From contig NZ_JABTEZ010000002.1 of the NCBI RefSeq assembly GCF_015711605.1, positions 1,798,001 to 1,862,000 of the forward strand: a DNA stretch of 64,000 bases. Direction: 5' to 3'. A program made the translations under genes and the position numbers. A model generated the notes under the pieces. That model searched no databases. It was not told where the DNA came from and saw only the letters and a program-made list of their open reading frames with translations. Positions 11,840 through 46,501 of this stretch are shown here, in pieces (within the stretch, counting starts at the first letter, position 1; every line of letters starts with the position of its first letter). The DNA comes from Planomonospora sp. ID67723 (GTDB taxonomy: Bacteria; Actinomycetota; Actinomycetes; Streptosporangiales; Streptosporangiaceae).

Positions 11840-12892
11840 TCACCGCGTGACCTCGGAGGCATCCGCGGCTTCGGGAGCCTGAGCGGGCAGCAGGGCGGTG
11901 ACATGCCATCCGGCCCGGGTGGGGCCCGACGAGAGCGAGCCGCCCAGCATGCCGGCCCGCTCGGCAAGCCCGGCCAGCCCGAACCCGCCTCTGCCGGCGG
12001 ATTCGGAACGCCCGCCACCGTCGTCGGCGACCCGCACCCGTACCGCCCGCCCTTCCGCGGTGACCTCGACCTCGACGAAAGTCGCCTGTCCGGCATGCCT
12101 GCGCACGTTGGTGAGCGCCTCGGTCACCACGCGGTAGACCGTGGCGGATGTCTCGCGGGACAGGTCGAGGCCGGGATCGACCCTGAGGCTCACCGGTGGT
12201 GAGAATCCGTCGACCAGCCCTTCCAGGCCCTCGACGCCCGGCAGCCGGCGGTCGAGGCCGGCGTCCGGTCGATCGTGGAGCATCTCCACGGTCCTGTCCA
12301 TGGAGGCCAGCGCCCGCAGGCCGGCCTCCTCGATGCGCCGCAGCGCGTCGGCCACCGCGGGGGGCAGCGGGCCGGGCACCATGCGAGCGGCCTGGGCCTG
12401 GACGAGCATCCCGCTGACGTCGTGGGCGACGTAGTCGTGCAGGTCGCGGGCGAGTGCGAGGCGCTGCGCCCGTTTGGCCTCGGTCACCGCGCGGCTCCGG
12501 GCCGTGTCCAGTGAGCGTGTGTACAGGCCCATCGCGGCGGCCGCGATCGCCAGGAGAGACCAGCCCGCGCAGCCGGTGACCATGAGCGACGGCTCGCCCG
12601 GCCACAGGACGCGCATGAGCACCAAGGCGACCGCGGCGCCCGGCAGCCCCGCCGCCGCGATCGCCCGGCGGCCCGGCACGCACCGGGCCGCCCGCAGGAC
12701 CAGCACGAGCAGCGCCAGCACCTCGACCATCAGCCACGCCACGCCGGCGGCCTGCCGTCCGAGCGGCGGGTGAACGGCGGTGACGACCAGGGACACCGCA
12801 CCGGCCGTCCCCGCCGCCTGGGCGAGGGGCACCCGCGGCACGAAAGCCGCGACCATCGCACCCAGCGCCGCGAGAGCCGCGATCACGTCCAT
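11840..12892 (-). CDS. Two-component sensor histidine kinase (HisKA_3/NarL type)
   Basis: 350 residues. The N-terminal 130 residues carry four or five hydrophobic segments (V-I-A-A-L-A-A-L-G-A-M-V-A, L-M-V-E-V-L-A-L-L-V-L-V-L and others), a membrane sensor with little extracellular sequence, as in DesK-like kinases. The phospho-acceptor segment is A-R-D-L-H-D-Y-V-A-H-D-V-S. The C-terminal ATPase has T-E-A-L-T-N-V-R-R-H-A (N box) and G-G-F-G-L-A-G-L-A-E-R-A (G2). It is the first gene of the kinase-regulator pair and is divergent from the membrane protein gene at 13022. The ATG at 12892 begins the sequence MDVIAALAALG. Confidence 0.93.
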   Translation of the reverse strand: MDVIAALAALGAMVAAFVPRVPLAQAAGTAGAVSLVVTAVHPPLGRQAAGVAWLMVEVLALLVLVLRAARCVPGRRAIAAAGLPGAAVALVLMRVLWPGEPSLMVTGCAGWSLLAIAAAAMGLYTRSLDTARSRAVTEAKRAQRLALARDLHDYVAHDVSGMLVQAQAARMVPGPLPPAVADALRRIEEAGLRALASMDRTVEMLHDRPDAGLDRRLPGVEGLEGLVDGFSPPVSLRVDPGLDLSRETSATVYRVVTEALTNVRRHAGQATFVEVEVTAEGRAVRVRVADDGGGRSESAGRGGFGLAGLAERAGMLGGSLSSGPTRAGWHVTALLPAQAPEAADASEVTR

Positions 12893-27960: not shown

Positions 27961-27980
27961 GTGCAACCTTGAGGGGAAGC

Positions 27981-32376: not shown

Positions 32377-33438
32377 TCACGTCCATGCCAGCCCCAGTCC
32401 GGCATTGCCCGCCGAGCGCAGCCGGGCGTCCCCGACCTCCACCGGGTACGGCTCGGCCAGCAGACCCAGGTCGGCCAGCGAGGCGTCCTCGACCAGCTCC
32501 ACCATGACCGGGTGGTGCAGCGTCAGGGCCAGCTGGCCCGACAGCTCGGTCAGCAGGTGCGGGTAGACCGGGACGTCGAAGGCGCGGGCCAGCTCGGCGA
32601 TGCGCAGGAACGGGGTGATCCCGCCGACCCTGACCACGTTGGGCTGGACCACGTCGCACGCGCCCGCGACGAGCAGGTCGCGGAAGCCGTGGACGGTGTA
32701 GACGTTCTCGCCCACCGCGACCGGCACGCCGATGCTGCGCCGCAGCTCCACGTGGGCGGCGACGTCGTCGGCGGGCAGCGGCTCCTCGATCCAGTGCAGG
32801 CCGTAGGGCTCCAGCGCCGCGATGGCGCGGCGGGCGCGGTGCAGGTCCCAGCGCTGGTTGGCGTCGATCATCAGGATCGTGCCGGGGCCGACGGCCTCGC
32901 GGACCGCGGCGACCCGCTCGACGTCCTCGGCAAGGTCGGGTCTGCCCACCTTGATCTTGACGGCCGGGTAGCCCGCGGCGCTCCAGCGCCCGGCCTGCTC
33001 GACCAGTTCCTCCAGCGAGTAGTGCAGATTGACGCCGCTGCCGTACACCGGGACGCTCTCCCGGCGCGGTCCGAGCACGTCCACCAGGGACGACTCCCCG
33101 CAGCGCAGGTCCCACAGCGCCAGGTCGACCCCGGCCATCGCGACCGTGGTGAGCCCGCCGCGCCCGGCCTCGCTCAGGTGCGTGCGCAACCGGTCCCACA
33201 CCAGCTCAGGGTGGGCCGGGCCGCCGATCAGCGCCTCGCGGATGTCGTTGTCCAGCAGCGCCTGCACGGCTCTCGCGCCGATCTGCGGGGTCCAGGAGAA
33301 ACCGGTGCCGATCCGCCCGTCCTCCAGCATGACCTCGCACACGATCACGTGGTTGCAGGGCACGTCCTCGCCCCACGGACGGCGCAGCGGCGCCGAGCGC
33401 AGGGTGGTCCTCAGGTCCTTGATGATGCCGGTGGTCAT
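32377..33438 (-). CDS. Enolase-superfamily sugar-acid dehydratase/cycloisomerase (MR group)
   Basis: 353 residues of the mandelate racemase/muconate lactonising family. Visible are the K-x-K motif V-K-I-K-V-G near residue 165, metal ligands D-A-N-Q-R-W, W-I-E-E-P-L and V-G-E-N-V-Y, and the His in V-Y-P-H-L-L-T-E that places it in the MR subgroup. Next to uronate dehydrogenase and KdgD the expected step is galactarate or galactarolactone to 3-deoxy-2-keto-hexarate, so galactarate dehydratase or galactarolactone cycloisomerase. The two cannot be told apart from sequence alone. The start overlaps the KdgD stop (ATGA). Confidence 0.85.
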   Translation of the reverse strand: MTTGIIKDLRTTLRSAPLRRPWGEDVPCNHVIVCEVMLEDGRIGTGFSWTPQIGARAVQALLDNDIREALIGGPAHPELVWDRLRTHLSEAGRGGLTTVAMAGVDLALWDLRCGESSLVDVLGPRRESVPVYGSGVNLHYSLEELVEQAGRWSAAGYPAVKIKVGRPDLAEDVERVAAVREAVGPGTILMIDANQRWDLHRARRAIAALEPYGLHWIEEPLPADDVAAHVELRRSIGVPVAVGENVYTVHGFRDLLVAGACDVVQPNVVRVGGITPFLRIAELARAFDVPVYPHLLTELSGQLALTLHHPVMVELVEDASLADLGLLAEPYPVEVGDARLRSAGNAGLGLAWT

Positions 33439-34310
33439 TCGGACACCAGGGCGAGGCCGTTCTTGATGAGCCCGTCGAGCTCGGCCAGGTGCTCGGGGGT
33501 GAGGTCGGTCAGCGGGGCCCGGACCGGCCCGACGTCCAGGCCGCGCAGCCGCAGTCCGGCCTTCACCAGGGAGACGGCGTACCCCGGCGCCTTGCTGCGC
33601 AGCTCGACCAGCGGCGCGTAGAACTCCGTCAGCAGCCGGTCGTGGCCGTTGAAGTACGCGATGGCGATCTCGGGAGCGAAGGCGAACACGGCCGAGGAGT
33701 ACAGCTCCACGCCGAGGCCGCGGTAGGCGGGCATGGTGAGCTCGGCGGTCGGCAGGCCGTTGAAGAAGGTGAAGTCCGGGCCGATCTCCCGCCGGACCGC
33801 CAGCACGATGCGCTGCATCAGGTCGATGTCGCCCACGCCGTCCTTCAGGCCGATCACGCCGGGGATGCGGGCGAGCTCCACCACCGAGGCCGGGTCGAGC
33901 ACCACGGAGCCGCGCTGGTAGACGATCACCGGCAGCTCCGCGGCGATCGCGCGTACGTACTCGGCGAAACCGGCCCTGGTGCCCTGCGTGAGGTAGGGCG
34001 GCATGAGCAGCAGGCCGTCGGCGCCCGCCTCGCGGGCCGTACGGGCCTGCTCGAGGGCGGCGCCGAGCGGACCGCCCGCGCCCGCCAGCACCGGCACCTC
34101 GCCCTGGACCGCCTTGGCCGCCACCTGCACGGCCCTGGCGTGCTCGCCCTGCGACAACGCGGAGAACTCCCCCGTGCCGCAGGCCACGAAGACGGCACCC
34201 GGGCCGTGCGCGAGGCCCTGGCGGATGTGCTCGGCCAGCACGTCCTCGGCCAGCGCGCCCTCACCGTCGAAGGGGGTCACGGGGAAGAACAGGACTCCGC
34301 TGAGATTCAT
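33435..34310 (-). CDS. kdgD: 5-dehydro-4-deoxyglucarate dehydratase
   Basis: 291 residues, DapA/NAL aldolase superfamily. The start L-S-G-V-L-F-F-P-V-T-P-F and V-A-C-G-T-G-E-F-S-A-L-S are characteristic of KdgD. The Schiff-base Lys is in G-V-I-G-L-K-D-G-V-G-D and the Tyr in P-V-I-V-Y-Q-R-G. It converts 5-keto-4-deoxyglucarate to 2-oxoglutarate semialdehyde with loss of water and CO2. The ATG at 34310 (GGGAG 8 nt upstream) is preferred over the in-frame TTG at 34316. It lies between the uronate dehydrogenase and enolase genes, in pathway order. Confidence 0.92.
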   Translation of the reverse strand: MNLSGVLFFPVTPFDGEGALAEDVLAEHIRQGLAHGPGAVFVACGTGEFSALSQGEHARAVQVAAKAVQGEVPVLAGAGGPLGAALEQARTAREAGADGLLLMPPYLTQGTRAGFAEYVRAIAAELPVIVYQRGSVVLDPASVVELARIPGVIGLKDGVGDIDLMQRIVLAVRREIGPDFTFFNGLPTAELTMPAYRGLGVELYSSAVFAFAPEIAIAYFNGHDRLLTEFYAPLVELRSKAPGYAVSLVKAGLRLRGLDVGPVRAPLTDLTPEHLAELDGLIKNGLALVSE

Positions 34311-34353
34311 CGTCAATGCTCCCTTGAGGAACTCGTCTTCGAAAAAGATCGTC

Positions 34354-35235
34354 TTAGGAAAGTTCGGTGCGCCAGCTGCGCTTGGCCTGCCAGCCGAGCA
34401 TCCGCTCGGCCTTGGCGGAGGAGAATGCGGGGGCGCTGCCGGTGAGGGCGGAGGCGAAGTCCGCGGTGGAGGGGATGACCCGCGGCAGCAGCTCCGACAG
34501 CGGCTCGCGGGCCAGCGCGTCGGCGGCCCCGGCGAAGAAGACCTCGCCGTTGGGCAGGCCGGGGAGCCGGTCGAGCAGGATGAGCAGCAGATCGGCCGCG
34601 TCGCGGGCGTCGATGTAGTTGAACAGCGAGACTCCGGCGATGTCCGGCCGGTCCAGCCGCTCGGTCACCGTGTGCCCCGACTGGGTCGGCGCCCCCTCCC
34701 ACTCCTCCGGCGCGATCACGAAGCAGGGCCGCACCGCCGCCAGTTTCGTCTCCGCGGTGCGCGCGAAGGACCGCATCGTCTCTTCGGCGACCAGCTTGGA
34801 CAGGTTGTAGGCGTTCCACGGCCGGGCCGGGTGGTCCTCGTCGATGGGCAGGTAGGCGGGGGCCCAGCCGCCCGGCGAGCCGTACCCGATGACGGTCGGG
34901 CTGCTGGCCACGATCACCTTGCCCACGCCCAGCGCCACCGCCGCGTCGCAGACGTTGAAGGCCAGCTGGGTGTTGGTGCGGAAGGTCACCTGGTCGCTGT
35001 GGCTGAACGGGGTGGCGATGGCGGCCAGGTGCACCACGGCGTCCGGCCGGAAGCGCGCGATCACCTCGTACGCCTCGCCGAGGTCGGTCAGGTCGGCGGG
35101 GAGGCTGGCGGCCGCGTCGGCGGGGGTGCCCGGCGCCCGGTCCACGCCGATCACCTCGTGCCCCGCCGCGGCGAGCGCGGACACGACGCTGCGCCCGAGG
35201 CGCCCGGCGCTCCCGGTGACAAGAGTTCTGCTCAC
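34354..35235 (-). CDS. udh: Uronate dehydrogenase-like NAD-dependent epimerase/dehydratase
   Basis: 293 residues, extended SDR fold. T-G-S-A-G-R-L-G-R NAD-binding motif (about 7-15), H-L-A-A-I-A-T-P-F near 66, active-site Tyr and Lys in Y-N-L-S-K. Length and position at the head of an enolase-KdgD-semialdehyde dehydrogenase operon match bacterial uronate dehydrogenase, which oxidises galacturonate or glucuronate to the aldarolactone. Epimerase activity cannot be excluded by motifs alone. The GTG at 35235 has AAGGGA 9 nt upstream. A LacI-type operator covers its promoter. Confidence 0.85.
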   Translation of the reverse strand: MSRTLVTGSAGRLGRSVVSALAAAGHEVIGVDRAPGTPADAAASLPADLTDLGEAYEVIARFRPDAVVHLAAIATPFSHSDQVTFRTNTQLAFNVCDAAVALGVGKVIVASSPTVIGYGSPGGWAPAYLPIDEDHPARPWNAYNLSKLVAEETMRSFARTAETKLAAVRPCFVIAPEEWEGAPTQSGHTVTERLDRPDIAGVSLFNYIDARDAADLLLILLDRLPGLPNGEVFFAGAADALAREPLSELLPRVIPSTADFASALTGSAPAFSSAKAERMLGWQAKRSWRTELS

Positions 35236-35277
35236 GGGTGTCTTTCCCTTCTGGCAGCCGCCAGGAACCCCTGGGGC

Positions 35278-35324
35278 TGCAACCAGTTGCACTGAACAGT
35301 GTCGTCATCTGGCTGAAACGTCAA
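35278..35324 (-). promoter_or_regulatory. Promoter and operator of the galacturonate operon
   Basis: On the minus strand, TTGACG (35324-35319) and, after 17 bases, CACTGT (35301-35296) can serve as -35/-10. The 14-bp palindrome TGCAACCAGTTGCA (35278-35291) sits directly over the expected transcription start, the classic place for repression. Confidence 0.65.
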
Positions 35325-35387: not shown

Positions 35388-35401
35388 CGCAACCGGTCGC
35401 A
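35388..35401. promoter_or_regulatory. LacI-type operator between udh and lacI1
   Basis: CGCAACCGGTCGCA differs from the consensus TGCAACCGNTTGCA at positions 1 and 10. It is central in the 249-bp divergent region. Confidence 0.55.
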
Positions 35402-35439: not shown

Positions 35440-35453
35440 CACAACCGTTTGCG
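35440..35453. promoter_or_regulatory. LacI-type operator before lacI1
   Basis: CACAACCGTTTGCG, another member of the set, lies 31 bases before the lacI1 start codon and suggests autoregulation. Confidence 0.6.
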
Positions 35454-35473: not shown

Positions 35474-36049
35474 GGAGGTGTGCCATGGCGGTGACGATCA
35501 GGGATGTGGCGCGGGCGTCGGGGGTGCATGTCTCGACGGTGTCGCGGACGTTTTCGGCGCCGCATCTGGTGAATGCGGAGACGCGGAACCGGGTGCTGGC
35601 GGTGGCGGAGGGGTTGGGGTATCGGCCGAATCGGGCGGCGCGGGCGTTGACGACGGGGCGGACGCACAATCTGGGGTTGATCGTGGCGGATATCGCCAAT
35701 CCGTTCTTTCCTCCGTTGATCAAGGCGGCGCAGGCGCAGGCGCGGGAGCGGGATTATCACGTGTTCGTGGCCGATACCGATGAGGATCCGGTGTTGGAGC
35801 AGGAGTTGATCGAGATGTTGTGCAAGCAGGTGGACGGGGTGTTGTTGTGCAGTCCGCGGTTGTCGAACCGGGTGATCGAGCGGCTTCGGGCGCAGGTGCC
35901 GTTTGTGGTGGTGAACCGTCGGGTGAAGGGGTTGGCGACGGTGTTGATGGATGTGGGTCAGGGGGTGCGGGCGGCGGTGGGTCATCTGGCGGGGTTGGGT
36001 CATCGGCGGGTGGCGTTGTTGTCGGGGCCGGCCGGCTCGTGGACCAGCG
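35474..36049 (+). repeat. 576-bp exact duplicate, lacI1 copy
   Basis: Identical base for base to 43432-44007 (offset 7958). It covers the ribosome site, start codon and first 188 codons of lacI1. It is G/T-skewed with many TTG and GTG codons, unlike the C-ending codons of its neighbours. Two further identical tracts with the same offset occur downstream (36180-36295 and 36313-36374). Confidence 0.95.
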
Positions 36050-36474
36050 GAGAGATCCGTGAGTCCGCGGCCGAGCGGGCCGCCGACCTCGGCCTGGAGC
36101 TGACCGTGCTGGGCCCGAACGCCCCGACCGAGCAGGGCGGGCTGGCGGCGGCCGGGGCCGTGGCGGCTGCGGGGGTGACCGGGGTGTTGTGCTACAACGA
36201 CCTGGTCGCGCTGGGCCTGATCGAGGGGCTGCGTGAGCGCGGTCTGGACGTGCCCGGCGACGTGAGTGTGATCGGCGTCGACGACAGCCTGCCGGGCCGC
36301 CTCAGCCGGCCAAAGCTGACGACGATCACGATGCCGACCGCGGCCGCCGGGCGGATGGCGGTCGACCTGCTGCTAGCCTCCGTCGCCGCGGGCGAGGCGG
36401 CCCCGCGCACCACCGCCAGGCTGGAGACCAGCCTGGTGATCAGAGAATCGACGCAGAGAGCGAGTTCACCGTGA
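35485..36474 (+). CDS. LacI family transcriptional regulator 1
   Basis: 329 residues. The helix-turn-helix V-T-I-R-D-V-A-R-A-S-G-V-H-V-S-T-V-S-R-T-F-S is followed by the hinge Y-R-P-N-R-A-A-R-A-L and a periplasmic-binding-like effector domain. Residues 1-188 are identical to those of LacI 2 (43443), while about 189-232 differ completely (R-E-S-A-A-E-R-A-A-D-L-G-L-E-L here), so both should bind the same operator with different inducer specificity. The ATG at 35485 has GGGAGG upstream. The gene overlaps the epimerase gene (GTGA). Operators at 35388 and 35440 precede it. Confidence 0.93.
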   Translation: MAVTIRDVARASGVHVSTVSRTFSAPHLVNAETRNRVLAVAEGLGYRPNRAARALTTGRTHNLGLIVADIANPFFPPLIKAAQAQARERDYHVFVADTDEDPVLEQELIEMLCKQVDGVLLCSPRLSNRVIERLRAQVPFVVVNRRVKGLATVLMDVGQGVRAAVGHLAGLGHRRVALLSGPAGSWTSGEIRESAAERAADLGLELTVLGPNAPTEQGGLAAAGAVAAAGVTGVLCYNDLVALGLIEGLRERGLDVPGDVSVIGVDDSLPGRLSRPKLTTITMPTAAAGRMAVDLLLASVAAGEAAPRTTARLETSLVIRESTQRASSP

Positions 36475-37427
36475 GATTTGGATCCACACCCGCCGGAGAC
36501 GCCGTGGACCGGCACGTCCTGTCGAACGGCCGGATGCGCGTAGGGATCCTGACCCTCGGCGCGATCGTCCAGTCGGTCGAGCTGCCCGACGGGACCGACG
36601 TCGTCCTCGGCCTGCCCACCGTGGCCGACTACCTGACGCGCAGCCGCTACTTCGGGGCCCTGGTCGGCCGGTACGGCAACCGCATCGCGGGCGGTCGTTT
36701 CACCCTCGACGGCACCCCCTACCAGCTGCCCCTCAACGACAAGGGCAACAGCCTGCACGGTGGCGAGACCGGGTTCGACAAGCGGATCTGGCAGGCGGAA
36801 TCGGACGGCGAGCGGGCCGTCCGGCTGACCTACGTCAGCAAAGACGGCGAGGAGGGGTATCCGGGCACTCTCACCGCGTCGGTCACCTACACCCTCACCG
36901 ACCGCGACGAGCTGCACATCGGCTACCACGCCACCACCGACGCGCCCACCGTGCTCAACCTGACCAACCACTCCTACTTCAACCTCGCCGGCTCGGGCGA
37001 CGTGCTCGGGCACGTCGTCACCATCGAGGCCGACCGGTACCTGCCGGTCGACGAGCGCAAGATCCCCCTCCCCGGAGAGCCCGTGCCGGTGGCGGGCACG
37101 CCGTACGACTTCACCGGGCCGACGGCGGTGGGCGCGCGGCTCGAGGGCTGCTACGACCACTGCTACGTGCTGCGCCCCGGCGGGGTGATGCGCGTGGAGG
37201 AGCCGGTGAGCGGCCGGGCGATGGAGGTGACGACCACCGAGCCGGGGGTCCAGTTCTACACCGGGCACATGCTGGACGGCGTCGCCACGCCGTACGGCAG
37301 GTACGCCGGGCTGTGCCTGGAGACCCAGCACTTCCCGGACTCGCCGAACCGTCCGGACTTCCCCTCCACCGTGCTCAGGCCGGGGCAGGAGCATGTCTCG
37401 ACGACCACCTACCGGTTCGTGAGCTGA
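36471..37427 (+). CDS. galM: Aldose 1-epimerase (galactose mutarotase family)
   Basis: 318 residues with G-N-R-I-A-G-G-R-F, L-P-L-N-D-K-G-N-S-L-H-G-G near residue 95, T-N-H-S-Y-F-N-L near 165 (catalytic His) and a late C-L-E-T-Q-H-F-P-D-S-P-N (catalytic Glu). It interconverts alpha and beta anomers of aldoses. Next to uronate dehydrogenase, which acts on one anomer, it could speed galacturonate or galactose use. The GTG start overlaps the lacI1 stop, so both are co-transcribed. Confidence 0.92.
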   Translation: MRFGSTPAGDAVDRHVLSNGRMRVGILTLGAIVQSVELPDGTDVVLGLPTVADYLTRSRYFGALVGRYGNRIAGGRFTLDGTPYQLPLNDKGNSLHGGETGFDKRIWQAESDGERAVRLTYVSKDGEEGYPGTLTASVTYTLTDRDELHIGYHATTDAPTVLNLTNHSYFNLAGSGDVLGHVVTIEADRYLPVDERKIPLPGEPVPVAGTPYDFTGPTAVGARLEGCYDHCYVLRPGGVMRVEEPVSGRAMEVTTTEPGVQFYTGHMLDGVATPYGRYAGLCLETQHFPDSPNRPDFPSTVLRPGQEHVSTTTYRFVS

Positions 37428-37743
37428 CCCAGGCGCGTCCATATCGGGGAAACGCGCCGTGACCGGTGTTTCCGGGACCGGCGCGGTCCTCGGTCATCGA
37501 GTGCGCAAGCCAATCATCCCATGACCCTATATATGGCCTTACGACTGCAACCGCTTGTAGCAACAAAGCCGGATCTGGAAAATTGTTTACCCGGCGCACA
37601 CCTGCCTGTAACTGATCTAGCTGCGGAAACAGGGTTAGCGATATATCGGTAACAGCTATGTAACGCCTGCAAAGGGTTGACGTAACTTTCTCCGGCGCTA
37701 TAGGAAAGCGCCATCCAATCACGTCACATCGGGAGGTCCCGTG
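37428..37743. promoter_or_regulatory. ABC-importer promoter region with two LacI-type sites
   Basis: A 316-bp, relatively A+T-rich region. TTGACG (37677-37682), a 16-base spacer and TATAGG (37699-37704) form a good vegetative promoter. Operator TGCAACCGCTTGTA is at 37546-37559, and a weaker copy TGCAAAGGGTTGAC (37668-37681) overlaps the -35 box. The spacing of about 122 bp would allow looping between two LacI dimers. No gene is seen. Confidence 0.7.
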
Positions 37744-37803
37744 ATGACGACCGAATCAAGAGATGTCGGAACCCAGTCCTCTCAGGGGTTCCGCCGTGGT
37801 TGA
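37744..37803 (+). CDS. Upstream leader ORF of the ABC importer operon (19 aa)
   Basis: A strong GGGAGG precedes GTG/ATG at 37741/37744. The frame reads MTTESRDVGTQSSQGFRRG and stops at 37801-37803, five bases past the first base of the permease GTG (37796). Ribosomes ending here could re-initiate on the permease start, whose own AGGGG lies inside the leader. The peptide itself resembles nothing known; a translational-coupling role is inference. Confidence 0.5.
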   Translation: MTTESRDVGTQSSQGFRRG

Positions 37804-38773
37804 TTCTCTGTCGCTGAAGTCCGAGGTCGCGGCTCCCGCCCCTGCTCCCGCTCCCAAGCGCGGGCGTGGGCGCCCCCGGCCCACCGTCCGCTCCCGCCGT
37901 GAGGCGTGGACGGCCCACCTGTTCCTCGCCCCGTGGTTCCTCGGCCTGTTCCTGATCACGGTCGGCCCCATCGTGGCATCGCTCTACCTGTCCTTCACCG
38001 ACTACAGCCTCCTCGACGAGGCCAAATGGGTCGGGCTGGACAACTACGTCAAGATGTTCACCGAGGACCCGCGGTTCTGGGCCTCGCTGAAGGTCACCAC
38101 GATCTACGTGGTCGTCTCGGTGCCGCTCCAGCTCGGCTTCGCCCTCGCCCTGGCCCTGCTGCTGGACCGCGGACTGCGGGGCCTGTCGTTCTACCGGTCG
38201 ATCTACTACCTGCCCTCGCTGCTGGGCGGCAGCGTGGCGATCGCCATCCTCTGGCGGAAGATCTTCGGCGCGGACGGCCTGGTCAACGCGGTGCTCGCGC
38301 TGTTCGGCATCCAGGGCACCAGCTACGTCAACAACCCCGACACCGCGCTGGGCACCCTGATCCTGCTGCACGTCTGGACGTTCGGCGCCCCGATGGTCAT
38401 CTTCCTGGCCGGCCTGCGGCAGATCCCGAGCAGCTACTACGAGGCCGCCTCGATCGACGGCGCGGGAGCCGTCCAGCAGTTCAGGTCGGTCACGTTGCCG
38501 CTGCTCACGCCGATCATCTTCTTCAACCTCGTGCTCGAAGTGATCAAGTCGTTCCAGTCGTTCACCCAGTCGTTCATCGTGAGCAACGGCACGGGCGGCC
38601 CGAGCGACTCCACCCTCTTCTACACGCTCTACCTCTACTCGAAGGGGTTCAAGGAGTACGAGATGGGCTACGCCTCGGCGATGGCCTGGGTGCTCGTGAT
38701 CATCATTGCCGGCCTGACCGGGGTCAACTTCCTCGCGTCCAAGTATTGGGTCTTCTATGGCGACAGCAAATAG
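37796..38773 (+). CDS. ABC sugar transporter permease 1 (MalF type)
   Basis: About 325 residues. A Pro/Ala/Arg-rich cytosolic N-terminus leads into six transmembrane helices (A-H-L-F-L-A-P-W-F-L-G-L-F-L-I is the first). The EAA loop Y-Y-E-A-A-S-I-D-G-A-G-A-V-Q-Q-F contacts the ATPase. With the next two genes it forms a carbohydrate importer of the CUT1 type. No ATPase is encoded here, as usual in actinobacteria, which share MsiK. The GTG at 37796 with AGGGG 7 nt upstream is preferred; ATG 37763 is possible. Confidence 0.9.
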   Translation: MVDSLSLKSEVAAPAPAPAPKRGRGRPRPTVRSRREAWTAHLFLAPWFLGLFLITVGPIVASLYLSFTDYSLLDEAKWVGLDNYVKMFTEDPRFWASLKVTTIYVVVSVPLQLGFALALALLLDRGLRGLSFYRSIYYLPSLLGGSVAIAILWRKIFGADGLVNAVLALFGIQGTSYVNNPDTALGTLILLHVWTFGAPMVIFLAGLRQIPSSYYEAASIDGAGAVQQFRSVTLPLLTPIIFFNLVLEVIKSFQSFTQSFIVSNGTGGPSDSTLFYTLYLYSKGFKEYEMGYASAMAWVLVIIIAGLTGVNFLASKYWVFYGDSK

Positions 38774-39620
38774 CCGGAATCCGGTCCTGTACCGGCGCCG
38801 CGTCTCCAGGGGTGCCAAGCACCTGATGCTGATCGGCTTCGGCCTGGTCATGCTCTACCCGCTGCTGTGGATGGTCTCCAGCTCCCTCAAGCCGGAGGAG
38901 CTGATCTTCCGGGAGCCGGGTCTGCTCCCCAGCACGATCACCTTCGACAACTACACCGAGGGCTGGAACGAGCTCGCCCATCCGTTCGGCTACTACCTGT
39001 GGAACTCGGCGGTCATCACGGCGCTGTCGGTCGTCGGAAACCTGGTCGCCTGCTCGCTGGCCGCCTACTCCTTCGCCCGGCTGAACTTCCCCCTGAAGAA
39101 GCTCTGGTTCGCGCTCATGCTCGGCACGATCATGCTGCCGTTCCACGTGGTGATCGTGCCGCAGTACATCATGTTCTCCCAGCTGGACATGATCAACACG
39201 ATCTGGCCGCTGATCCTGCCGAAGTTCCTGGCCCACGACTCGTTCTTCATCTTCCTGATGGTCCAGTTCATCCGGACCCTCCCGCGGGAGCTCGACGAGG
39301 CCGCCGCGATCGACGGCGCCGGGTACTGGCGCACGTTCTTCCGCGTCATCCTCCCGCTCTGCACCCCCGCGCTGGCCACCACGGCGATCTTCACGTTCAT
39401 CTGGACGTGGAACGACTTCTTCAGCCAGCTGCTCTACCTGAACAACCCCGACAACTTCACCGTCCCGGTGGCGCTGCGCACCTTCCTGGACTCCACCGGT
39501 GAGTCGTCGTGGGGGCCGATGTTCGCCATGTCGATCATCGCGCTCGGGCCGATCTTCGGATTCTTCCTGGCCGGCCAGAAGTACCTGATCCGTGGCATGG
39601 CGACCACGGGTCTCAAGTAG
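38757..39620 (+). CDS. ABC sugar transporter permease 2 (MalG type)
   Basis: 287 residues with six transmembrane helices and the EAA loop L-D-E-A-A-A-I-D-G-A-G-Y-W-R-T-F-F. The N-terminal S-S-S-L-K-P region and C-terminal G-Q-K-Y-L-I-R-G-M-A-T-T-G-L-K are typical of MalG-like subunits. The start overlaps the permease 1 gene by 17 bases, so expression is coupled. Partner of the binding protein at 39666. Confidence 0.92.
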   Translation: MATANSRNPVLYRRRVSRGAKHLMLIGFGLVMLYPLLWMVSSSLKPEELIFREPGLLPSTITFDNYTEGWNELAHPFGYYLWNSAVITALSVVGNLVACSLAAYSFARLNFPLKKLWFALMLGTIMLPFHVVIVPQYIMFSQLDMINTIWPLILPKFLAHDSFFIFLMVQFIRTLPRELDEAAAIDGAGYWRTFFRVILPLCTPALATTAIFTFIWTWNDFFSQLLYLNNPDNFTVPVALRTFLDSTGESSWGPMFAMSIIALGPIFGFFLAGQKYLIRGMATTGLK

Positions 39621-39665
39621 TCCTCTTCAACCCCCCTGAGAACGAACAAGAGGAAGGACCGAGAG

Positions 39666-40937
39666 ATGCGCTCTCTCAAGACGGCGGCCCTGCTCGCGGC
39701 GGCCGCGATGACCCTGGCGGCCTGCGGCAGCGGCGACGGCGGCACCGCCGAAGGCGACGGCAAGGTCAAGCTGCGCTTCTCCTACTGGGGCTCCGACGCC
39801 CGGCAGAAGCTCACCGAGCAGGCGATCGCGGCGTTCGAGAAGAAGAACCCGACCATCGACGTGGTCGGCGAGTTCTCCGACTGGCCGAGCTACTACGAGT
39901 CGCTGGCCACCAAGGTGGCGGCCAACGACGCGCCCGACGTCATGACCCTGGAGATCCGCGGCCTGGCCGAGTACGCGGGCCGCGGCGCCCTCGCCGATCT
40001 CACCGGCAAGGTCAACGTCGCCGACCTCGACCAGCAGGTGCTCTCCACCGGCAGCTTCGGCGGCAAGCAGTACGCCATCCCCACCGGCGTCAACGTCATG
40101 GGAGTGATCGTCAACAAGGCCGTCCTCGACAAGGCGGGCGAGGAGCTCCCGGACGACAAGACCTGGACCTGGGACGACTACATCAAGCTCTCCGAGAAGA
40201 TCACCAAGGCCGGGGACGGTTCGACCTTCGGTACGGAGTACACCTTCAACCAGGTGTACCTGTCCATGTTCGCCGCGCAGCGCGGGGAGAAGTTCTACAA
40301 CAACGGCAAGATCGGCGTCACCCCCGAGACGATCAAGGCCTGGTGGGCGAACTTCGACCAGCTGATCAAGACCAAGGGCTCGCCCGACGCCGCGAAGATG
40401 GCCGAGATCGCCGCCGCCGGCGTGGAGCAGTCGCTGATCGGCACCAACAAGGGCGCGCTCGGCATGTGGTGGAGCAACCAGCTCGGCACCCTGAGCAAGG
40501 TGTCCGGCTCCGAGCTGACCATGCTCCGCCTCCCCAAGGCGGAGGGAGCCTCCACCCACGGCATGTTCCTCCAGCCCGCCATGCACTGGACCGCCTCCAG
40601 CAAGACCGAGCACCCGGCCGAGGCCCAGAAGTTCATCGACTACCTGGTCAACGACCCCGAGGCCGCCGGCATCCTGCTCAGCGACCGCGGTCTGCCGATC
40701 AACTCCAAGGTCCTCGCCACGGTCAAGGACAAGCTGCCCCCGGCCGACCAGCAGGTCTTGGCCTTCGTCGACTCGATCAAGAGCGAGCTGGCCACGGCGG
40801 AGGTCCCGCCGAAGGGCGGCTCGAAGATGGAGGACATCGTCCGGCGCTACTCCGAGGCGGTGACCTCCGGCCAGCAGAGCGCCGACGACGCGGCCACCGA
40901 GCTCCTCAACGCGGCCAACGCGGCCATCGCCGGCTGA
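39666..40937 (+). CDS. ABC sugar transporter substrate-binding lipoprotein
   Basis: 423 residues. A lipoprotein signal peptide with lipobox L-A-A-C (K-T-A-A-L-L-A-A-A-A-M-T-L-A-A-C) is followed by a family 1 extracellular binding protein: L-R-F-S-Y-W-G-S-D, A-F-E-K-K-N-P-T-I-D-V, P-D-V-M-T-L-E and W-T-W-D-D-Y. The pectin context points to galacturonate, oligogalacturonate or a side-chain sugar as ligand, but this is not proved. AGGA precedes the ATG. Confidence 0.92.
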   Translation: MRSLKTAALLAAAAMTLAACGSGDGGTAEGDGKVKLRFSYWGSDARQKLTEQAIAAFEKKNPTIDVVGEFSDWPSYYESLATKVAANDAPDVMTLEIRGLAEYAGRGALADLTGKVNVADLDQQVLSTGSFGGKQYAIPTGVNVMGVIVNKAVLDKAGEELPDDKTWTWDDYIKLSEKITKAGDGSTFGTEYTFNQVYLSMFAAQRGEKFYNNGKIGVTPETIKAWWANFDQLIKTKGSPDAAKMAEIAAAGVEQSLIGTNKGALGMWWSNQLGTLSKVSGSELTMLRLPKAEGASTHGMFLQPAMHWTASSKTEHPAEAQKFIDYLVNDPEAAGILLSDRGLPINSKVLATVKDKLPPADQQVLAFVDSIKSELATAEVPPKGGSKMEDIVRRYSEAVTSGQQSADDAATELLNAANAAIAG

Positions 40938-40964
40938 CCGCCACCGGGGAGACACCCTAAGACT

Positions 40965-41003
40965 GCCGTACGGCTCGTTGCGGGAGCGCGCGAGCCGTAC
41001 GGC
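40965..41003 (+). terminator. Intercistronic hairpin after the binding-protein gene
   Basis: A 13-bp perfect stem (GCCGTACGGCTCG, 40965-40977, with its complement at 40991-41003) and a 13-base loop, between the binding-protein gene and the oxidoreductase gene of the same operon. It could be a partial terminator or an RNA-stabilising element that keeps binding-protein mRNA abundant. Confidence 0.7.
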
Positions 41004-41022
41004 GCACCATCGGGGAGAAGAG

Positions 41023-42309
41023 ATGAGATACGCATTCGTCGGGCTCGGCCACCGCGCCCAGATGTACGTCGACGCGCTGCTCGGCGACTGGCGGGACACC
41101 GGCACCGTCGTCGCCCTGTGCGACGCCAACCGGACCCGCATGGACTTCTACGCCGAGCGGATCGGCGCGCCGGTGCCCTGCTTCGCGCCGGACGACTTCG
41201 AGAAGATGCTCGAACTGTGCGACGCGGTGGTCGTCGCCACCGTGGACGCCACGCACGCCCACTACGTCGTCGCGGCGCTGGAGGCGGGCAAGCGCGTCAT
41301 CGTGGAGAAGCCGCTGACGACCGACGCCGAGGGGTGCGCCGCGATCGCCGCCGCCGCCGAGCGGAGCACCGGCTCCCTGGTCGTCACCTTCAACTACCGC
41401 TACTCGCCCCGCAACTCCGCGGTCCGCCGCCTCATCATGGACGGCGCGATCGGCGAGATCACCTCCGTGCACTTCGACTGGGCGCTGGACACCATCCACG
41501 GCGCCGACTACTTCCGCCGCTGGCACCGCGACAAGGCCAGCTCCGGAGGCCTGCTGGTGCACAAGTCCACCCACCACTTCGACCTGGTCAACTGGTGGCT
41601 GGCGGCCACGGCGGAGAGCGTGTACGCCCAGGGAGACCTGCGCTTCTACGGCGCGGAGAACGCCAAGGCCCGCGGCCTCGACCCGCGGCCCGAGCGCGGC
41701 CAGGGCGCACCGGGCCTCGGCACCGACCCGTTCATCCTGGACATCTCCGCCGACCCCCGGCTCAAGCGCCTCTACCTGGACGCCGAGCACGAGGACGGCT
41801 ACATCCGCGACCAGGACGTCTTCGCCGAGGGCGTCACCATCGAGGACAACATGGCGGTCCTGGTCCGTTACGACAACCGGGCTGTGCTCACCTACTCGCT
41901 CAACGCGCACGCGCCCTACGAGGGCTACCGTGTCGTCTTCAACGGCACCGGCGGGCGGATCGAACTGGAGGTGTGCGAGCGGGCCTGGACTCCGCCGCAC
42001 GCAGCGATCGACCCGACCGCGGCCTCCAAGGAGCACGCGGCGGGCGCCTGGGAGAAGCTCACCCTGCACCAGCACTGGCAGGAGGCCCGGGAGATCCCGA
42101 TCGAGCAGGGCGAGGGCGGTCACGGCGGCGGCGACCGGCTGCTGCTGGACGACGTCTTCCGCGGGCCCGGCGACGACCCGCTGGCCCGGCAGGCCGGCTA
42201 CCTCGACGGGATCCGCAGCGTCATGGTCGGAGCCTCGGCCAACGAGTCCATCCGTACCGGCCGGCCCGTCCACCTGACCGACGGCGGCACCCGCATGTCG
42301 GACCGCTGA
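41023..42309 (+). CDS. Gfo/Idh/MocA family oxidoreductase
   Basis: 428 residues. NAD-binding N-terminus R-Y-A-F-V-G-L-G-H-R-A (about 2-12), then V-V-V-A-T-V-D-A-T-H, V-I-V-E-K-P-L-T and the C-terminal substrate domain with F-N-Y-R-Y-S-P-R-N and H-K-S-T-H-H-F-D-L-V-N-W. These enzymes act on sugars, inositols or glycosides. GGGGAG lies upstream of the ATG at 41023, which is chosen over the longer frame. It is third in the importer operon, so it probably handles an imported sugar or glycoside. Confidence 0.9.
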   Translation: MRYAFVGLGHRAQMYVDALLGDWRDTGTVVALCDANRTRMDFYAERIGAPVPCFAPDDFEKMLELCDAVVVATVDATHAHYVVAALEAGKRVIVEKPLTTDAEGCAAIAAAAERSTGSLVVTFNYRYSPRNSAVRRLIMDGAIGEITSVHFDWALDTIHGADYFRRWHRDKASSGGLLVHKSTHHFDLVNWWLAATAESVYAQGDLRFYGAENAKARGLDPRPERGQGAPGLGTDPFILDISADPRLKRLYLDAEHEDGYIRDQDVFAEGVTIEDNMAVLVRYDNRAVLTYSLNAHAPYEGYRVVFNGTGGRIELEVCERAWTPPHAAIDPTAASKEHAAGAWEKLTLHQHWQEAREIPIEQGEGGHGGGDRLLLDDVFRGPGDDPLARQAGYLDGIRSVMVGASANESIRTGRPVHLTDGGTRMSDR

Positions 42310-42312
42310 GTC

Positions 42313-43452
42313 GTGCCGTCCGACTCCGCTTCTGCCGGAGAGCCGCGCCGCCTGCGGCACCTCGGAGAGTTCTCCGCTCTCGCCGGGATCGCCGCGGCGC
42401 AGCGCGGGTTGTTCCCCCCGCCCGGTCCCGGGCTGCGCGAGCGGGCACGCGACCTGCTGGGCGTCCTCGAGCTGACCGCGGCGGACGTGCGCACCGAGCG
42501 GACCTGGAAGGCGGGCGAGCTGTCCGGGGAGGAGGTCTCCTGGGACGTCGGGTTCGGCCCCAGGACCCGCGCCTACGTGCTGCGCCCCCGCGAGGCGGGC
42601 GACGCGGTGCTGCCGGGAGTCCTCGCGCTGCACTGCCACGCCGGGATGAAGTGGGCGGGCAAGGAGAAGATCGCCGACGGCCCGGAAGGCCACTCCGCCG
42701 AAGTGGCCCGGCTGCGGACCGCGCTCTACGACGGCAGGGCCTGGGCCGGGGAACTGGCCGCGCGCGGGTTCACCGTACTGGTGCCCGACGTGCTGGGCTG
42801 GGGCAGCCGCAGGATCCCGCTCGCCGACATGCCGGAGAACGTGCGCGGGAACCCCGAGCCCGGGGTGGGTGAGGCCGACCGCTACGACGCCGCGGCCGCC
42901 CGGCACGAGCACGTGCTGGCCAAGTACTGCACCGTGCTCGGCACCTCGTACGCGGGCGTCGTCGCGGGTGAGGACCTGGCCGCGGCCGCCTATCTGCGTT
43001 CCCGCCCCGACACCGGGCCCGTCGGCTGCGCCGGGCTGTCCGGCGGCGGCCTGCGCGCGGCCCTGCTCGGCGCCTTCGATCCCGGCATGGCGGCGGTCGC
43101 CGTGATCGCGATGGTCTCCTCCTACCGTGACCTGCTGGACGGGTACGTCGCGAGTCACACCTGGATGTTGTACCCTCCGGGCCTGTCAAGGCTGTGCGAC
43201 CTGCCCGACCTGGTGGCCTGCGCGGCCCCCCGGCCGTTGCTGGTCTGGTACGGCGAGCGCGACGCGATCCTTCCGGCGGACGGGATGCGTCGTGCCCATG
43301 CGATGATCACGGCACATTACCGGCGGGCCCCGGCGGGCTACACGGGCGTGTTCGCCGACACGGGGCACTGCTTCGGCATCCCGGCTCAGGAGCGGGTCTT
43401 CGGCTGGCTCGCCCGCCACTTGAGAGCAGATGGAGGTGTGCCATGGCGGTGA
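42313..43452 (+). CDS. Alpha/beta-hydrolase (acetyl xylan esterase/dienelactone hydrolase-like)
   Basis: 379 residues with a long N-terminal extension. The core shows V-L-A-L-H-C-H-A-G, G-F-T-V-L-V-P-D-V-L-G-W-G, the nucleophile elbow C-A-G-L-S-G-G-G, V-W-Y-G-E-R-D-A-I-L-P (Asp) and D-T-G-H-C-F-G-I (His). No signal peptide, so cytosolic. The context suggests deacylation of an imported pectin fragment. The GTG is three bases after the previous stop and the end overlaps the lacI2 start by 10 bases. Confidence 0.82.
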   Translation: MPSDSASAGEPRRLRHLGEFSALAGIAAAQRGLFPPPGPGLRERARDLLGVLELTAADVRTERTWKAGELSGEEVSWDVGFGPRTRAYVLRPREAGDAVLPGVLALHCHAGMKWAGKEKIADGPEGHSAEVARLRTALYDGRAWAGELAARGFTVLVPDVLGWGSRRIPLADMPENVRGNPEPGVGEADRYDAAAARHEHVLAKYCTVLGTSYAGVVAGEDLAAAAYLRSRPDTGPVGCAGLSGGGLRAALLGAFDPGMAAVAVIAMVSSYRDLLDGYVASHTWMLYPPGLSRLCDLPDLVACAAPRPLLVWYGERDAILPADGMRRAHAMITAHYRRAPAGYTGVFADTGHCFGIPAQERVFGWLARHLRADGGVPWR

Positions 43453-44007
43453 CGATCAGGGATGTGGCGCGGGCGTCGGGGGTGCATGTCTCGACGGTGT
43501 CGCGGACGTTTTCGGCGCCGCATCTGGTGAATGCGGAGACGCGGAACCGGGTGCTGGCGGTGGCGGAGGGGTTGGGGTATCGGCCGAATCGGGCGGCGCG
43601 GGCGTTGACGACGGGGCGGACGCACAATCTGGGGTTGATCGTGGCGGATATCGCCAATCCGTTCTTTCCTCCGTTGATCAAGGCGGCGCAGGCGCAGGCG
43701 CGGGAGCGGGATTATCACGTGTTCGTGGCCGATACCGATGAGGATCCGGTGTTGGAGCAGGAGTTGATCGAGATGTTGTGCAAGCAGGTGGACGGGGTGT
43801 TGTTGTGCAGTCCGCGGTTGTCGAACCGGGTGATCGAGCGGCTTCGGGCGCAGGTGCCGTTTGTGGTGGTGAACCGTCGGGTGAAGGGGTTGGCGACGGT
43901 GTTGATGGATGTGGGTCAGGGGGTGCGGGCGGCGGTGGGTCATCTGGCGGGGTTGGGTCATCGGCGGGTGGCGTTGTTGTCGGGGCCGGCCGGCTCGTGG
44001 ACCAGCG
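43432..44007 (+). repeat. 576-bp exact duplicate, lacI2 copy
   Basis: Second copy of 35474-36049. Both boundaries are sharp: the base before the ribosome site and the base after codon 188 differ between copies. In this copy the tract begins inside the end of the esterase gene. Confidence 0.95.
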
Positions 44008-44462
44008 AGGAGATGCACGCCGCCGCCACCGCCGCCGCGGCCGAGTTCGGCGTCGAGCTGATGCTCCAGGGCCCGAACGAGCCGAACGAGCAGGGCGGGC
44101 TGGCGGCGGCGTCCGCGGTCGCCGGGTCGGGGGTGAGCGGGGTGTTGTGCTACAACGACCTGGTCGCGCTGGGCCTGATCGAGGGGCTGCGTGAGCGCGG
44201 TCTGGACGTGCCCGGCGACGTGAGTGTGATCGGCGTCGACGACAGCCTGCCGGCCCGGTTGAACAGGCCGAAGCTGACGACGATCACGATGCCGACCGCG
44301 GCCGCCGGGCGGATGGCGGTCGACCTGCTGCTGGCGGCCGTCAACGCCGGGGACTCGGAGACGCCGGCGCTGGCCCGGCTGGAGACCAACCTCGTCGTGC
44401 GCGAGTCCACCGGGGCGGTGGATCGGGTCGCCGGTGCGGCCCAGCCGAGCCTGCGCGGGTAA
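43443..44462 (+). CDS. LacI family transcriptional regulator 2
   Basis: 339 residues. The DNA-binding domain and the first half of the effector domain (1-188) are identical to LacI 1. The following segment (E-E-M-H-A-A-A-T-A-A-A-A-E-F-G-V-E-L) is unique, then shared blocks resume (G-V-L-C-Y-N-D-L-V-A-L-G). The last 15 residues are an unshared tail. It is the last gene of the importer operon. Same operator, different ligand pocket is the natural reading; heterodimers with LacI 1 are possible. Confidence 0.92.
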   Translation: MAVTIRDVARASGVHVSTVSRTFSAPHLVNAETRNRVLAVAEGLGYRPNRAARALTTGRTHNLGLIVADIANPFFPPLIKAAQAQARERDYHVFVADTDEDPVLEQELIEMLCKQVDGVLLCSPRLSNRVIERLRAQVPFVVVNRRVKGLATVLMDVGQGVRAAVGHLAGLGHRRVALLSGPAGSWTSEEMHAAATAAAAEFGVELMLQGPNEPNEQGGLAAASAVAGSGVSGVLCYNDLVALGLIEGLRERGLDVPGDVSVIGVDDSLPARLNRPKLTTITMPTAAAGRMAVDLLLAAVNAGDSETPALARLETNLVVRESTGAVDRVAGAAQPSLRG

Positions 44463-45477: not shown

Positions 45478-45586
45478 GAGATGTCCTTTCGTTCCAGATC
45501 GGAGGTCGTGTGACCACCCTGGCCGCCGCGCGCGGGGGCTGACAGATCCCCTCGATACTGTTAGTGCGACTACCAGGGAGCCGCGG

Positions 45587-46501
45587 ATGAACGAGGTGCG
45601 CCGGACGGCGCCGGTGGGCGAGGTGCGCCGGACGGCGCCGGTGGGCGAGGTGCGCCGGACGGCGCCGGTGGAGGAGGTGCGCCGGACGGCGCTGGCGAAC
45701 TTCCTGCGGACGCGGCGCGCCGGGCTGACACCGCAGGAGGTGGGCCTGGCGCCGGGGTTGCGCCGCCGGGCGCCCGGGTTGCGCCGGGAGGAGGTGGCGC
45801 TGCTGTCGGGTGTGGGGATCACCTGGTACACCTGGCTGGAGCAGGGCCGTGACATCAACCCGTCGCCGGAGGTGCTCGCGGCCATCGCGCGGACCCTCAG
45901 GCTCGACGACGCGGCGACGGGCTACCTGTTCCGCATGGCGGGGCAGCAGCCGCCGGAGGGGCCGGCGGGATCGGGCGATGTGTCCGGGCACCTGCTGGAT
46001 CTGATCCACGCCCAGGACCCCGCCCCCGCCGTCATCATGGACGGCTGCTGGGACCTGCGCGCCTGGAACGCCGCCGCCGACGCGCTCTACCGCTACTCCG
46101 ACCAGTCCCCGGAGGACCGCAACGTCGCCTGGCTGATGTTCGCCTCCCCGGACATCCGCGTGTTCACGGTGGGCTGGGAGCACCATGCCCGGCGGATGCT
46201 GGGGGAGCTGAGGGAGAGCTTCGCGCGCCGCCCCGACGAGCGGATGGCCCGCCTGCTGGCGCGGTTGCGCGGGCGGTTCCCGGAGGCGGACGCCTGGCTC
46301 GACGAGCGTGAGGTCAGCCGCCGGGCCGGCGGCATCACCAAGGAGATCCGGCACCCCGAGGCGGGCACGCTGCTGCTGAACCAGATCGTCCTCCACCCCG
46401 CGGAGGCCCCGGATCTGCAGGTGGTGATCCTCCAGCCGCTTGCCGGGACGCCGACGGACCTCCGCCTCGCCGGTCTGGCGGCGCCGCGGTCCCGGCGCTA
46501 G
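45587..46501 (+). CDS. XRE-family regulator with MmyB-like ligand domain
   Basis: 304 residues. After an N-terminal repeat (E-V-R-R-T-A-P-V-G three times and a fourth partial) comes L-A-N-F-L-R-T-R-R-A-G-L-T-P, R-R-A-P-G-L-R-R-E-E-V-A-L-L-S-G-V-G-I-T-W-Y-T-W-L-E-Q-G-R. This is the classic helix-turn-helix of the actinobacterial regulators often divergent from dehydrogenases or transporters. The C-terminal part has the MmyB-type ligand-binding domain (W-N-A-A-A-D-A-L, L-N-Q-I-V-L-H-P). GGGAG lies 6 nt before the ATG. Confidence 0.9.
   Translation: MNEVRRTAPVGEVRRTAPVGEVRRTAPVEEVRRTALANFLRTRRAGLTPQEVGLAPGLRRRAPGLRREEVALLSGVGITWYTWLEQGRDINPSPEVLAAIARTLRLDDAATGYLFRMAGQQPPEGPAGSGDVSGHLLDLIHAQDPAPAVIMDGCWDLRAWNAAADALYRYSDQSPEDRNVAWLMFASPDIRVFTVGWEHHARRMLGELRESFARRPDERMARLLARLRGRFPEADAWLDEREVSRRAGGITKEIRHPEAGTLLLNQIVLHPAEAPDLQVVILQPLAGTPTDLRLAGLAAPRSRR
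45593..45694 (+). repeat. Intragenic tandem repeat, 27-bp unit
   Basis: Three 27-bp units (45593, 45620, 45647) and a partial fourth (45674-45694) encode E-V-R-R-T-A-P-V-G/E at the N-terminus of the XRE regulator. The last unit grades into the normal start of the family (E-V-R-R-T-A-L-A-N-F-L), so the repeat is an in-frame expansion of the native N-terminus. Confidence 0.9.

Follow-up and report, generated by a model that had tools for sequence, protein, structure and literature searches.

Introduction

Escherichia coli controls one sugar pathway with two LacI-family isorepressors, GalR and GalS, which probably share operators and which have diverged from each other over their whole length. 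Here we describe two LacI-family repressors, LacI-A and LacI-B, whose DNA-reading halves, unlike those of GalR and GalS, are identical, in all likelihood through gene conversion. Their genes lie in a stretch of 64,000 nt from Planomonospora sp. ID67723 (assembly GCF_015711605.1, contig NZ_JABTEZ010000002.1, positions 1,798,001 to 1,862,000, forward strand). This whole stretch is referred to as the window, and coordinates are given in its numbering.

Duplicated bacterial genes such as tufA and tufB undergo concerted evolution, paralogues being more alike than orthologues, silent sites included (PMC6053082). Copies of the LacI pair are likewise closer within a genome than between genomes, also at silent sites, but they differ from tufA/tufB in being homogenised mainly in one half of the gene, in keeping a class-specific patch and in being strongly skewed. 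A second precedent is provided by the elements named GRINS, described in two reports as repeated coding DNA with intense GC and TA skew, recoding and gene conversion, commonest in Actinobacteria (PMC10394414, PMC9899208); the latter defines them as regions of at least 500 bp with more than 80% identity to another region. The LacI tract resembles GRINS in that it is repeated over more than 500 bp at more than 80% identity, carries both skews, is recoded and is converted. GRINS are known mostly from the modules of giant multi-module polyketide synthases, in which cause is not easily told from effect; in the present case, by contrast, the signature is found in a repressor pair of a catabolic operon. 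This system has two copies in a single operon, and species and genera with an unskewed pair, with a skewed pair and with a lost partner are at hand for comparison. The abstract of the original GRINS paper of 2021 reportedly mentions several gene families; the kind of element is thus already known, and the LacI pair is a new, unusually clear case.

In engineered LacI/GalR chimeras, one DNA-binding domain joined to several ligand-binding domains produces AND, NOT and NOR behaviour at a single operator (PMC13056197). LacI-A and LacI-B would resemble these chimeras in sharing one reader, in an arrangement that may be AND-like. They differ from them in being natural and made by conversion, and in that the shared part includes the N-subdomain besides the DNA-binding domain. 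The locus may represent a natural route to repressors with one reader and separate sensors, such as are built by hand in synthetic biology. Among the matches listed in literature searches on GRINS and on gene conversion between paralogues of LacI or other regulators, no case of a regulator pair was found.

Results

Two repressor genes with an identical 5' half

LacI-A (35485..36474, + strand, 329 aa) and LacI-B (43443..44462, + strand, 339 aa) are the first and last genes of what, judging from gene order, appears to be one operon; the start of LacI-B overlaps the 3' end of the preceding gene. Matches to PF00356 (the LacI helix-turn-helix domain) and PF13377 (Peripla_BP_3) are both above cut-off in LacI-A, the protein covered by the Pfam scan, to which LacI-B is identical over codons 1-188. 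The closest solved sequences are those of CcpA.

As the first-pass annotation, made from the letters of the window alone, had claimed, positions 35474-36049 (+) equal positions 43432-44007 (+) in 576 of 576 bases, at an offset of 7958. The tract starts 11 bases 5' of the ATG, so that it contains the ribosome-binding site in addition to codons 1-188. Further identical runs follow at the same offset: those of 116 nt (36180..36295, partner 44138-44253, +) and 62 nt (36313..36374, partner 44271-44332, +), which had been reported as well, and two shorter ones of 24 and 12 bases. The 24-base run (36129-36152) falls within a divergent patch, codons 189-232 (36049..36180 in LacI-A and 44007..44138 in LacI-B, both +), which had been called unrelated in the two genes. 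In fact the patch consists of diverged homologues, 70.5% identical in DNA and 54.5% in protein, with the differences concentrated mostly in codons 189-209.

A DNA search of the 8.34-Mb genome found the tract at only these two places, and the next-closest LacI relative in this genome is 39% identical. Under a null model that conserves only the protein and uses the tract's own skewed codon usage, 51 differences are expected over codons 1-188, with a minimum of 34 in 1000 draws; none is observed. Chance and protein conservation are excluded as the cause of the identity seen in the window.

Gene conversion of the 5' half

A scan of named genomes for homologous loci, in which the best 78 of 359 candidate loci were kept, found the pair with unchanged gene order in Nonomuraea dietziae (L033) and N. 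soli (L034). A protein search over 341 family genomes (matches in 141) added genome G138, and DNA searches added G001 and G197, all with the same gene order. The latter two are drafts that break inside both copies; the contig ends at the broken copies have 95 (G001) and 60 (G197) identical bases in common. With the window, the pair is present in at least six of the 341 family genomes; the family searches scored 6 and 2 candidates per genome, and the count is a lower bound to which drafts may add hidden pairs. In genome G311 (locus L141) the operon is present, with LacI-B intact and LacI-A decayed. LacI-B stands alone in five loci with the operon in view (L035, L036, L037, L038 and L042); it is also present in L046, whose contig stops before the expected position of LacI-A.

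The G311 remnant of LacI-A lies at about 2576-2981 of L141, between the divergent gene and the aldose epimerase gene, and matches LacI-A piecemeal. In the Planomonospora locus L035, a second LacI 3'-end fragment (12220-12507, residues 246-334, about 70% identical) is found 1.25 kb past the gene.

Over codons 1-188, the two copies of a genome are 100% identical in the window, 98.2% in N. dietziae and 98.0% in G138, whereas identity of the window to N. dietziae and G138 is 90-92%. When sites from these three genomes were sorted by species or by gene class, codons 1-188 yielded 54 species-sorted and no class-sorted sites. The DNA tree of the 5' halves groups the copies by genome (support 100/97 for N. 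dietziae, 97/93 for G138 and 99/97 for N. soli; those of the window are identical) and conflicts with the 3' DNA tree, which unites the four A copies (100/99). The approximately unbiased (AU) test rejects a single clade of the three non-window A copies on 5' DNA (p 8e-8) and rejects each of four within-genome pairs on 3' DNA (p 0.0006-0.022). The comparison of orthologous loci that the first-pass annotation had proposed as a check for concerted evolution shows, then, 5' halves that pair by genome and 3' halves that pair by class, and paralogues that are repeatedly closer than orthologues at silent sites. Altogether, these data strongly support recurrent gene conversion, that is, concerted evolution of the 5' halves rather than an artefact. 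Where "recent gene conversion or selection at DNA level" had been suggested, the trees, the AU tests and the 54:0 split favour the former, as a recurrent process, over the latter.

Codon skew of the converted tract

Third positions of codons 1-188 in the window comprise 0% A, 13% C, 73% G and 14% T, as compared with 50-61% C in the five neighbouring genes measured; the tract as a whole has a GC skew of 0.37 and a TA skew of 0.24. In the window, N. dietziae and G138 taken together, third positions of this segment are 8-13% C, 68-73% G and 14-20% T. Past codon 188 the C content returns to 41-47%, the skew ending where the identity ends. Four-fold sites have changed to G and C/T sites, for the most part, to T. 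Leucine codons have become TTG, which is used for 15 of 20 leucines in the tract as against 3 of 38 leucines across both 3' halves. These counts agree with the initial description of the tract as G/T-skewed, rich in TTG and unlike the flanking genes.

The 78 loci contain 80 homologous genes, and such a composition is confined to the two N. dietziae genes (C 8 and 10%), C ranging from 29 to 61% in the other 78. None of the other LacI genes compared in the window's own genome is skewed (27 rows representing 26 distinct genes, one more locus without a hit having been dropped; C 46-64%). Five of the six pairs are skewed, two of them being only partly readable, and that of N. soli is unskewed. GC/TA skews in the readable 3' part of the G197 tract are 0.40/0.39, against 0.43/0.44 in the window; the readable ends of G001 give 0.32/0.29 and 0.33/0.33 (codons 1-32) and 0.52/0.52 (codons 153-188 of LacI-B). 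L036 and L042, which belong to the genus of G197 and carry only LacI-B, lack the T bias and show less G bias, with 0.19/0.13 and 0.22/0.14 in the part that is readable in G197. Over codons 1-188, five relatives with LacI-B alone are unskewed, and TA skew never rises above 0.04 in L035, L036, L037, L042 and L046.

One paper's working criteria for GRINS are a length of at least 500 bp, identity above 80% and GC and TA skews both above 0.15. Such a length at such identity is found in the window, N. dietziae and G138 and is absent from N. soli, G001 and G197 being readable in part. Taken over all segments above 80% identity, GC skew is 0.29-0.31 and TA skew 0.17-0.21 in the three pairs, so that the skewed pairs readable in full, three in number, all qualify, unlike N. 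soli. Another paper sets a stricter figure of 25%. GC skew passes it in all three pairs; the TA skew of the 5' part does so in N. dietziae only (0.27, as compared with 0.24 in G138 and 0.20 in the window). Gene conversion, a further property of GRINS, is indicated by the trees, AU tests and site sorting. The tract does not lie within an assembly-line polyketide synthase but in LacI regulators of a catabolic operon, and is for this reason called GRINS-like, whether the synthase context is defining being a matter of wording. In our reading, the regulator pair carries a GRINS-like element, a match that the first-pass annotation had not named.

Background levels were estimated from 454 kb of the window's own genome and from 81 sources totalling 1.63 Mb (the 78 loci, L140, L141 and the window). 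In the former, both skews exceed 0.2 at four places, two of which are the LacI tracts; among its repeats of at least 300 bp, both exceed 0.15 only in the LacI pair, an inverted 78% repeat giving 0.21/0.15. In the latter, segments with both skews above 0.2 occur in 26 other loci, usually outside listed repeats (L081 is an exception). The window's genome has 16 ketosynthase matches.

Strong double skews were noted in three Nonomuraea loci, L105 (5201-6750), L095 (1251-4100) and L081 (2851-4250), with maxima of 0.43/0.72, 0.41/0.61 and 0.58/0.62, respectively; only that of L081 overlaps a listed repeat. Direct repeats with a 276-bp spacing, about 74-84% alike, are present in L054 (12318-14544), L056, L089, L091 and other Nonomuraea loci, and a similar array occurs in the window's own genome (contig C2, 1953.5-1955.5 kb).

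Two candidate features of the tract were rejected. A single G-quadruplex motif on the coding strand, envisaged as a trigger of conversion, occupies the same position in the window, in G311 and in the B-only L036 and L042, and is found in none of N. dietziae, G138 and N. soli; moreover, such a motif also arises in 245 of 1000 sequences obtained by shuffling the codon order of the window's 5' half. Long reverse-strand frames over the tract, the sole evidence considered for an antisense protein, are as expected where A-ending codons are absent.

The divergent patch

Codons 189-209 differ between A and B in all five pairs readable there. Over codons 189-232, A copies are usually nearest to A copies and B copies to B copies, with exceptions that are clearest in G138, whose A and B copies share 81% identity over this stretch. 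Residue 189 is G in the five A copies read across the patch and E in seven of seven B copies (window, N. dietziae, G138, N. soli, G197, G311 and G001). A structure model of LacI-A (mean predicted local distance difference test score, pLDDT, of 78), from which only the secondary structure in this region was taken, places the patch in a helix (186-201) and a strand (205-209). We take the start of this helix to adjoin the ligand, as in LacI and PurR structures and their contacts. The chances that LacI-A and LacI-B have different ligands appear nearly even.

Candidate operators

LacI/GalR repressors bind a palindromic operator with a central CG. Three CGCAACCGGTTGCG-type palindromes are found between or at the divergent gene and LacI-A in five of five syntenic loci. 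In the window they are TGCAACCAGTTGCA (35278..35291, +, 3 mismatches), at the start of the divergent gene, CGCAACCGGTCGCA (35388..35401, +, 2 mismatches) and CACAACCGTTTGCG (35440..35453, +, 2 mismatches), just 5' of LacI-A; the first two have the same sequence in all five loci, and a version of the third is present in each. No palindrome of this type occurs within 200 bp upstream of LacI-B in these loci. Of 75 other homologues, 59 have a palindrome with up to 2 mismatches in the 250 bp upstream, as compared with 1 of 75 random stretches; these homologues are those left once the L033 and L034 rows and homologues too near a contig start were set aside. The early suggestion that both repressors act on the same operators is thereby favoured indirectly, through the identical DNA-binding domain and the conserved palindromes, which are candidate sites. 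Both proteins probably bind the same sites, controlling the operon and each other.

Proposed explanation and order of events

Taken as a whole, the data are probably best explained by a repressor pair homogenised by conversion, with a GRINS-like 5' half, a shared reader and different or differently tuned sensors. Two paralogous LacI-family repressors bracket one apparent sugar-acid operon. Ectopic conversion between copies 8 kb apart repeatedly homogenises the ribosome-binding site, the DNA-binding domain and the N-subdomain, as the comparison between genomes shows, and mostly halts at the short patch after codon 188, which in five pairs is kept A- or B-type. The converted half has become GRINS-like, synonymous codons having moved to G where possible and for the most part to T at C/T sites, a recoding that yields the intense GC and TA skew of the coding strand. 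Both repressors may read the same operators before the operon and answer different or differently tuned ligands; the operon would then open fully only once both are released, in AND-like fashion. Mixed LacI-A/LacI-B dimers are structurally likely. As to the cause of the skew, our guess is that C was lost unequally from the two strands, namely from the non-template strand while it lay exposed in transcription or conversion, and that the result was later copied between the genes.

Several observations weigh against this explanation. Codons 189-310 of the window, N. dietziae and G138 contain 28 species-sorted against 8 class-sorted sites, which implies that conversion reaches the 3' half too, if patchily. 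On 5' protein, the AU test of the A copies is borderline (p 0.062). N. soli is the weakest case: its pair is unskewed and shows only 82% identity between the 5' halves (61% at third positions), so conversion there would be old or weak. It comes nearest to the normal divergence over the first 188 codons that had been named as a refutation, yet its 5' halves still pair in the DNA tree. The window's TA skew, 0.20-0.24, is below the stricter 25% figure, and over codons 117-188 some B-only loci are near the skew threshold (L046 0.18/0.21, L037 0.19/0.15, L035 0.15/0.15). Conversion may halt at the patch for no other reason than its divergence. The patch evolves fast between orthologues too (62-80% protein identity within a class), and A and B of G138 are 75% alike in it. 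The "different sensors" of the first-pass annotation are plausible, though this rate of change tempers the idea. Residue 189 varies in B-only relatives (E in four, D in L038, Q in L046), and differences fixed between four A and five B copies are limited to positions 189, 310 and 325. Finally, when three mismatches are allowed, the window alone has 11 palindromes for 9.2 expected, no more than by chance; the operator pattern draws its weight from conservation across loci.

Three states, besides LacI-B alone, were found among the relatives: paired and unskewed (N. soli), paired and skewed (five genomes), and partner decayed with a weaker T bias (G311). Where LacI-B is alone, G bias is moderate in L035, L036, L037, L042 and L046 (operon partly out of view) and slight in L038. 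The states fit an order in which conversion came first, skew second and decay after loss of the partner, as read from few genomes and with the placement of G311 uncertain. T bias, then G bias, would decay upon partner loss, first as in G311 and later as in the B-only loci (third-position G about 60%, T near 0). At sites with T in all copies of N. dietziae and G138, 9 have T in the window and C in G311 and none the reverse, while 8 have C and 19 have T in both. Decay of the skew in G311 is a tentative conclusion, valid only if G311 is the window's sister; the flanking genes suggest so, not strongly (83/86), and the 5' tree places G311 outside (98/98). To our knowledge, whether conversion precedes skew is an open question for GRINS; the order suggested here, if true, would bear on it. 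We regard as doubtful, though worth stating, the broader idea of a natural generator of multi-input repressors, in which a self-homogenising, skewed tract keeps the reader, a protected patch frees the sensors, the skew needs a partner, and conversion, skew and decay succeed one another.

Alternative explanations

The alternative that best withstands the evidence is that LacI-A and LacI-B are redundant isorepressors sensing the same ligand, the pair being just a device for dosage or autoregulation. We consider this quite conceivable, though not the better choice: just three positions are fixed between the classes, LacI-A has decayed in G311 and five relatives with the operon in view do with LacI-B alone, whereas in the five readable pairs the patch by the presumed ligand site has remained class-specific beside strongly converted DNA.

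It is improbable that the tract is foreign DNA with another organism's codon usage, spread by conversion, its skew having nothing to do with conversion. The abrupt skew, which stops at the tract end, and the patchy occurrence of the pair among genera would suit such an origin. However, the tract's protein sits within the local B-type family, and its best family match outside the paired genomes and G311, among the matches listed, is 85%. Furthermore, genus g44 combines a skewed tract in the paired G197 with far weaker skew in the B-only L036 and L042, and genus g40 has two skewed pairs out of three and an unskewed B-only locus, L038.

Much less likely still is a fresh duplication, that is, a single recent pasting of the 5' half with no continuing conversion. 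Sufficient for the window by itself, it conflicts with the 53 substitutions present in both copies of one species only, which need repeated exchange, and with a 3' A class common to all four species tested. An assembly artefact, through duplication of the 5' half in silico or collapse of two diverged copies, is scarcely credible in spite of the exact 576-base identity and of the G001 and G197 drafts breaking at the repeat. The window belongs to a 9-contig assembly with both copies within unique flanks, and the odd codon usage is common to several species; collapse, which had been named as a possible refutation, is excluded in N. dietziae and G138, where 10 and 11 differences, respectively, separate A from B over 564 sites. 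Selection on the protein, or on 5' DNA or RNA, keeping the copies alike with no conversion, can be practically dismissed, strongly conserved though the DNA-binding half is family-wide, for protein conservation predicts 51-57 differences on average (minima 34-41) where 0-11 are seen, and substitutions within a species occur jointly in both copies (54:0). A pair homogenised by recurrent conversion remains the explanation that we favour.

Neighbouring genes and other features

The genes between the repressors, all on the + strand, encode an aldose 1-epimerase (36471..37427), a sugar ABC transporter with two permeases and a binding protein (37763..40937; the second permease recognised by eye from its frame), and a Gfo/Idh/MocA oxidoreductase followed by a probable esterase (40978..43452). 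The latter has no Pfam match and one weak NCBIfam match, under cut-off. Divergent from LacI-A, on the - strand, is a gene of the NAD-dependent epimerase/dehydratase family (34354..35292; family by profile), probably a uronate dehydrogenase, the specific activity being suggested by its neighbours. Two more - strand genes follow. One (33435..34316) belongs to the 5-dehydro-4-deoxyglucarate dehydratase subfamily (NF002958, 383.6 bits for a cut-off of 278) and scores below the cut-off of the narrower TIGR03249 (297 versus 374); the other (32377..33438) is of the mandelate racemase/enolase family, its best model, talarate/galactarate dehydratase, being under cut-off. Together, the operon and the divergent set may specify a uronate or galactarate pathway.

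Near these uronate genes, a long frame at 25699-27966 (-) resembles, by eye, a pectinesterase fused to a pectate lyase. At 45582-45716, a 27-bp tandem repeat is found close to the start of a reading frame, also judged by eye, that is helix-turn-helix-like.

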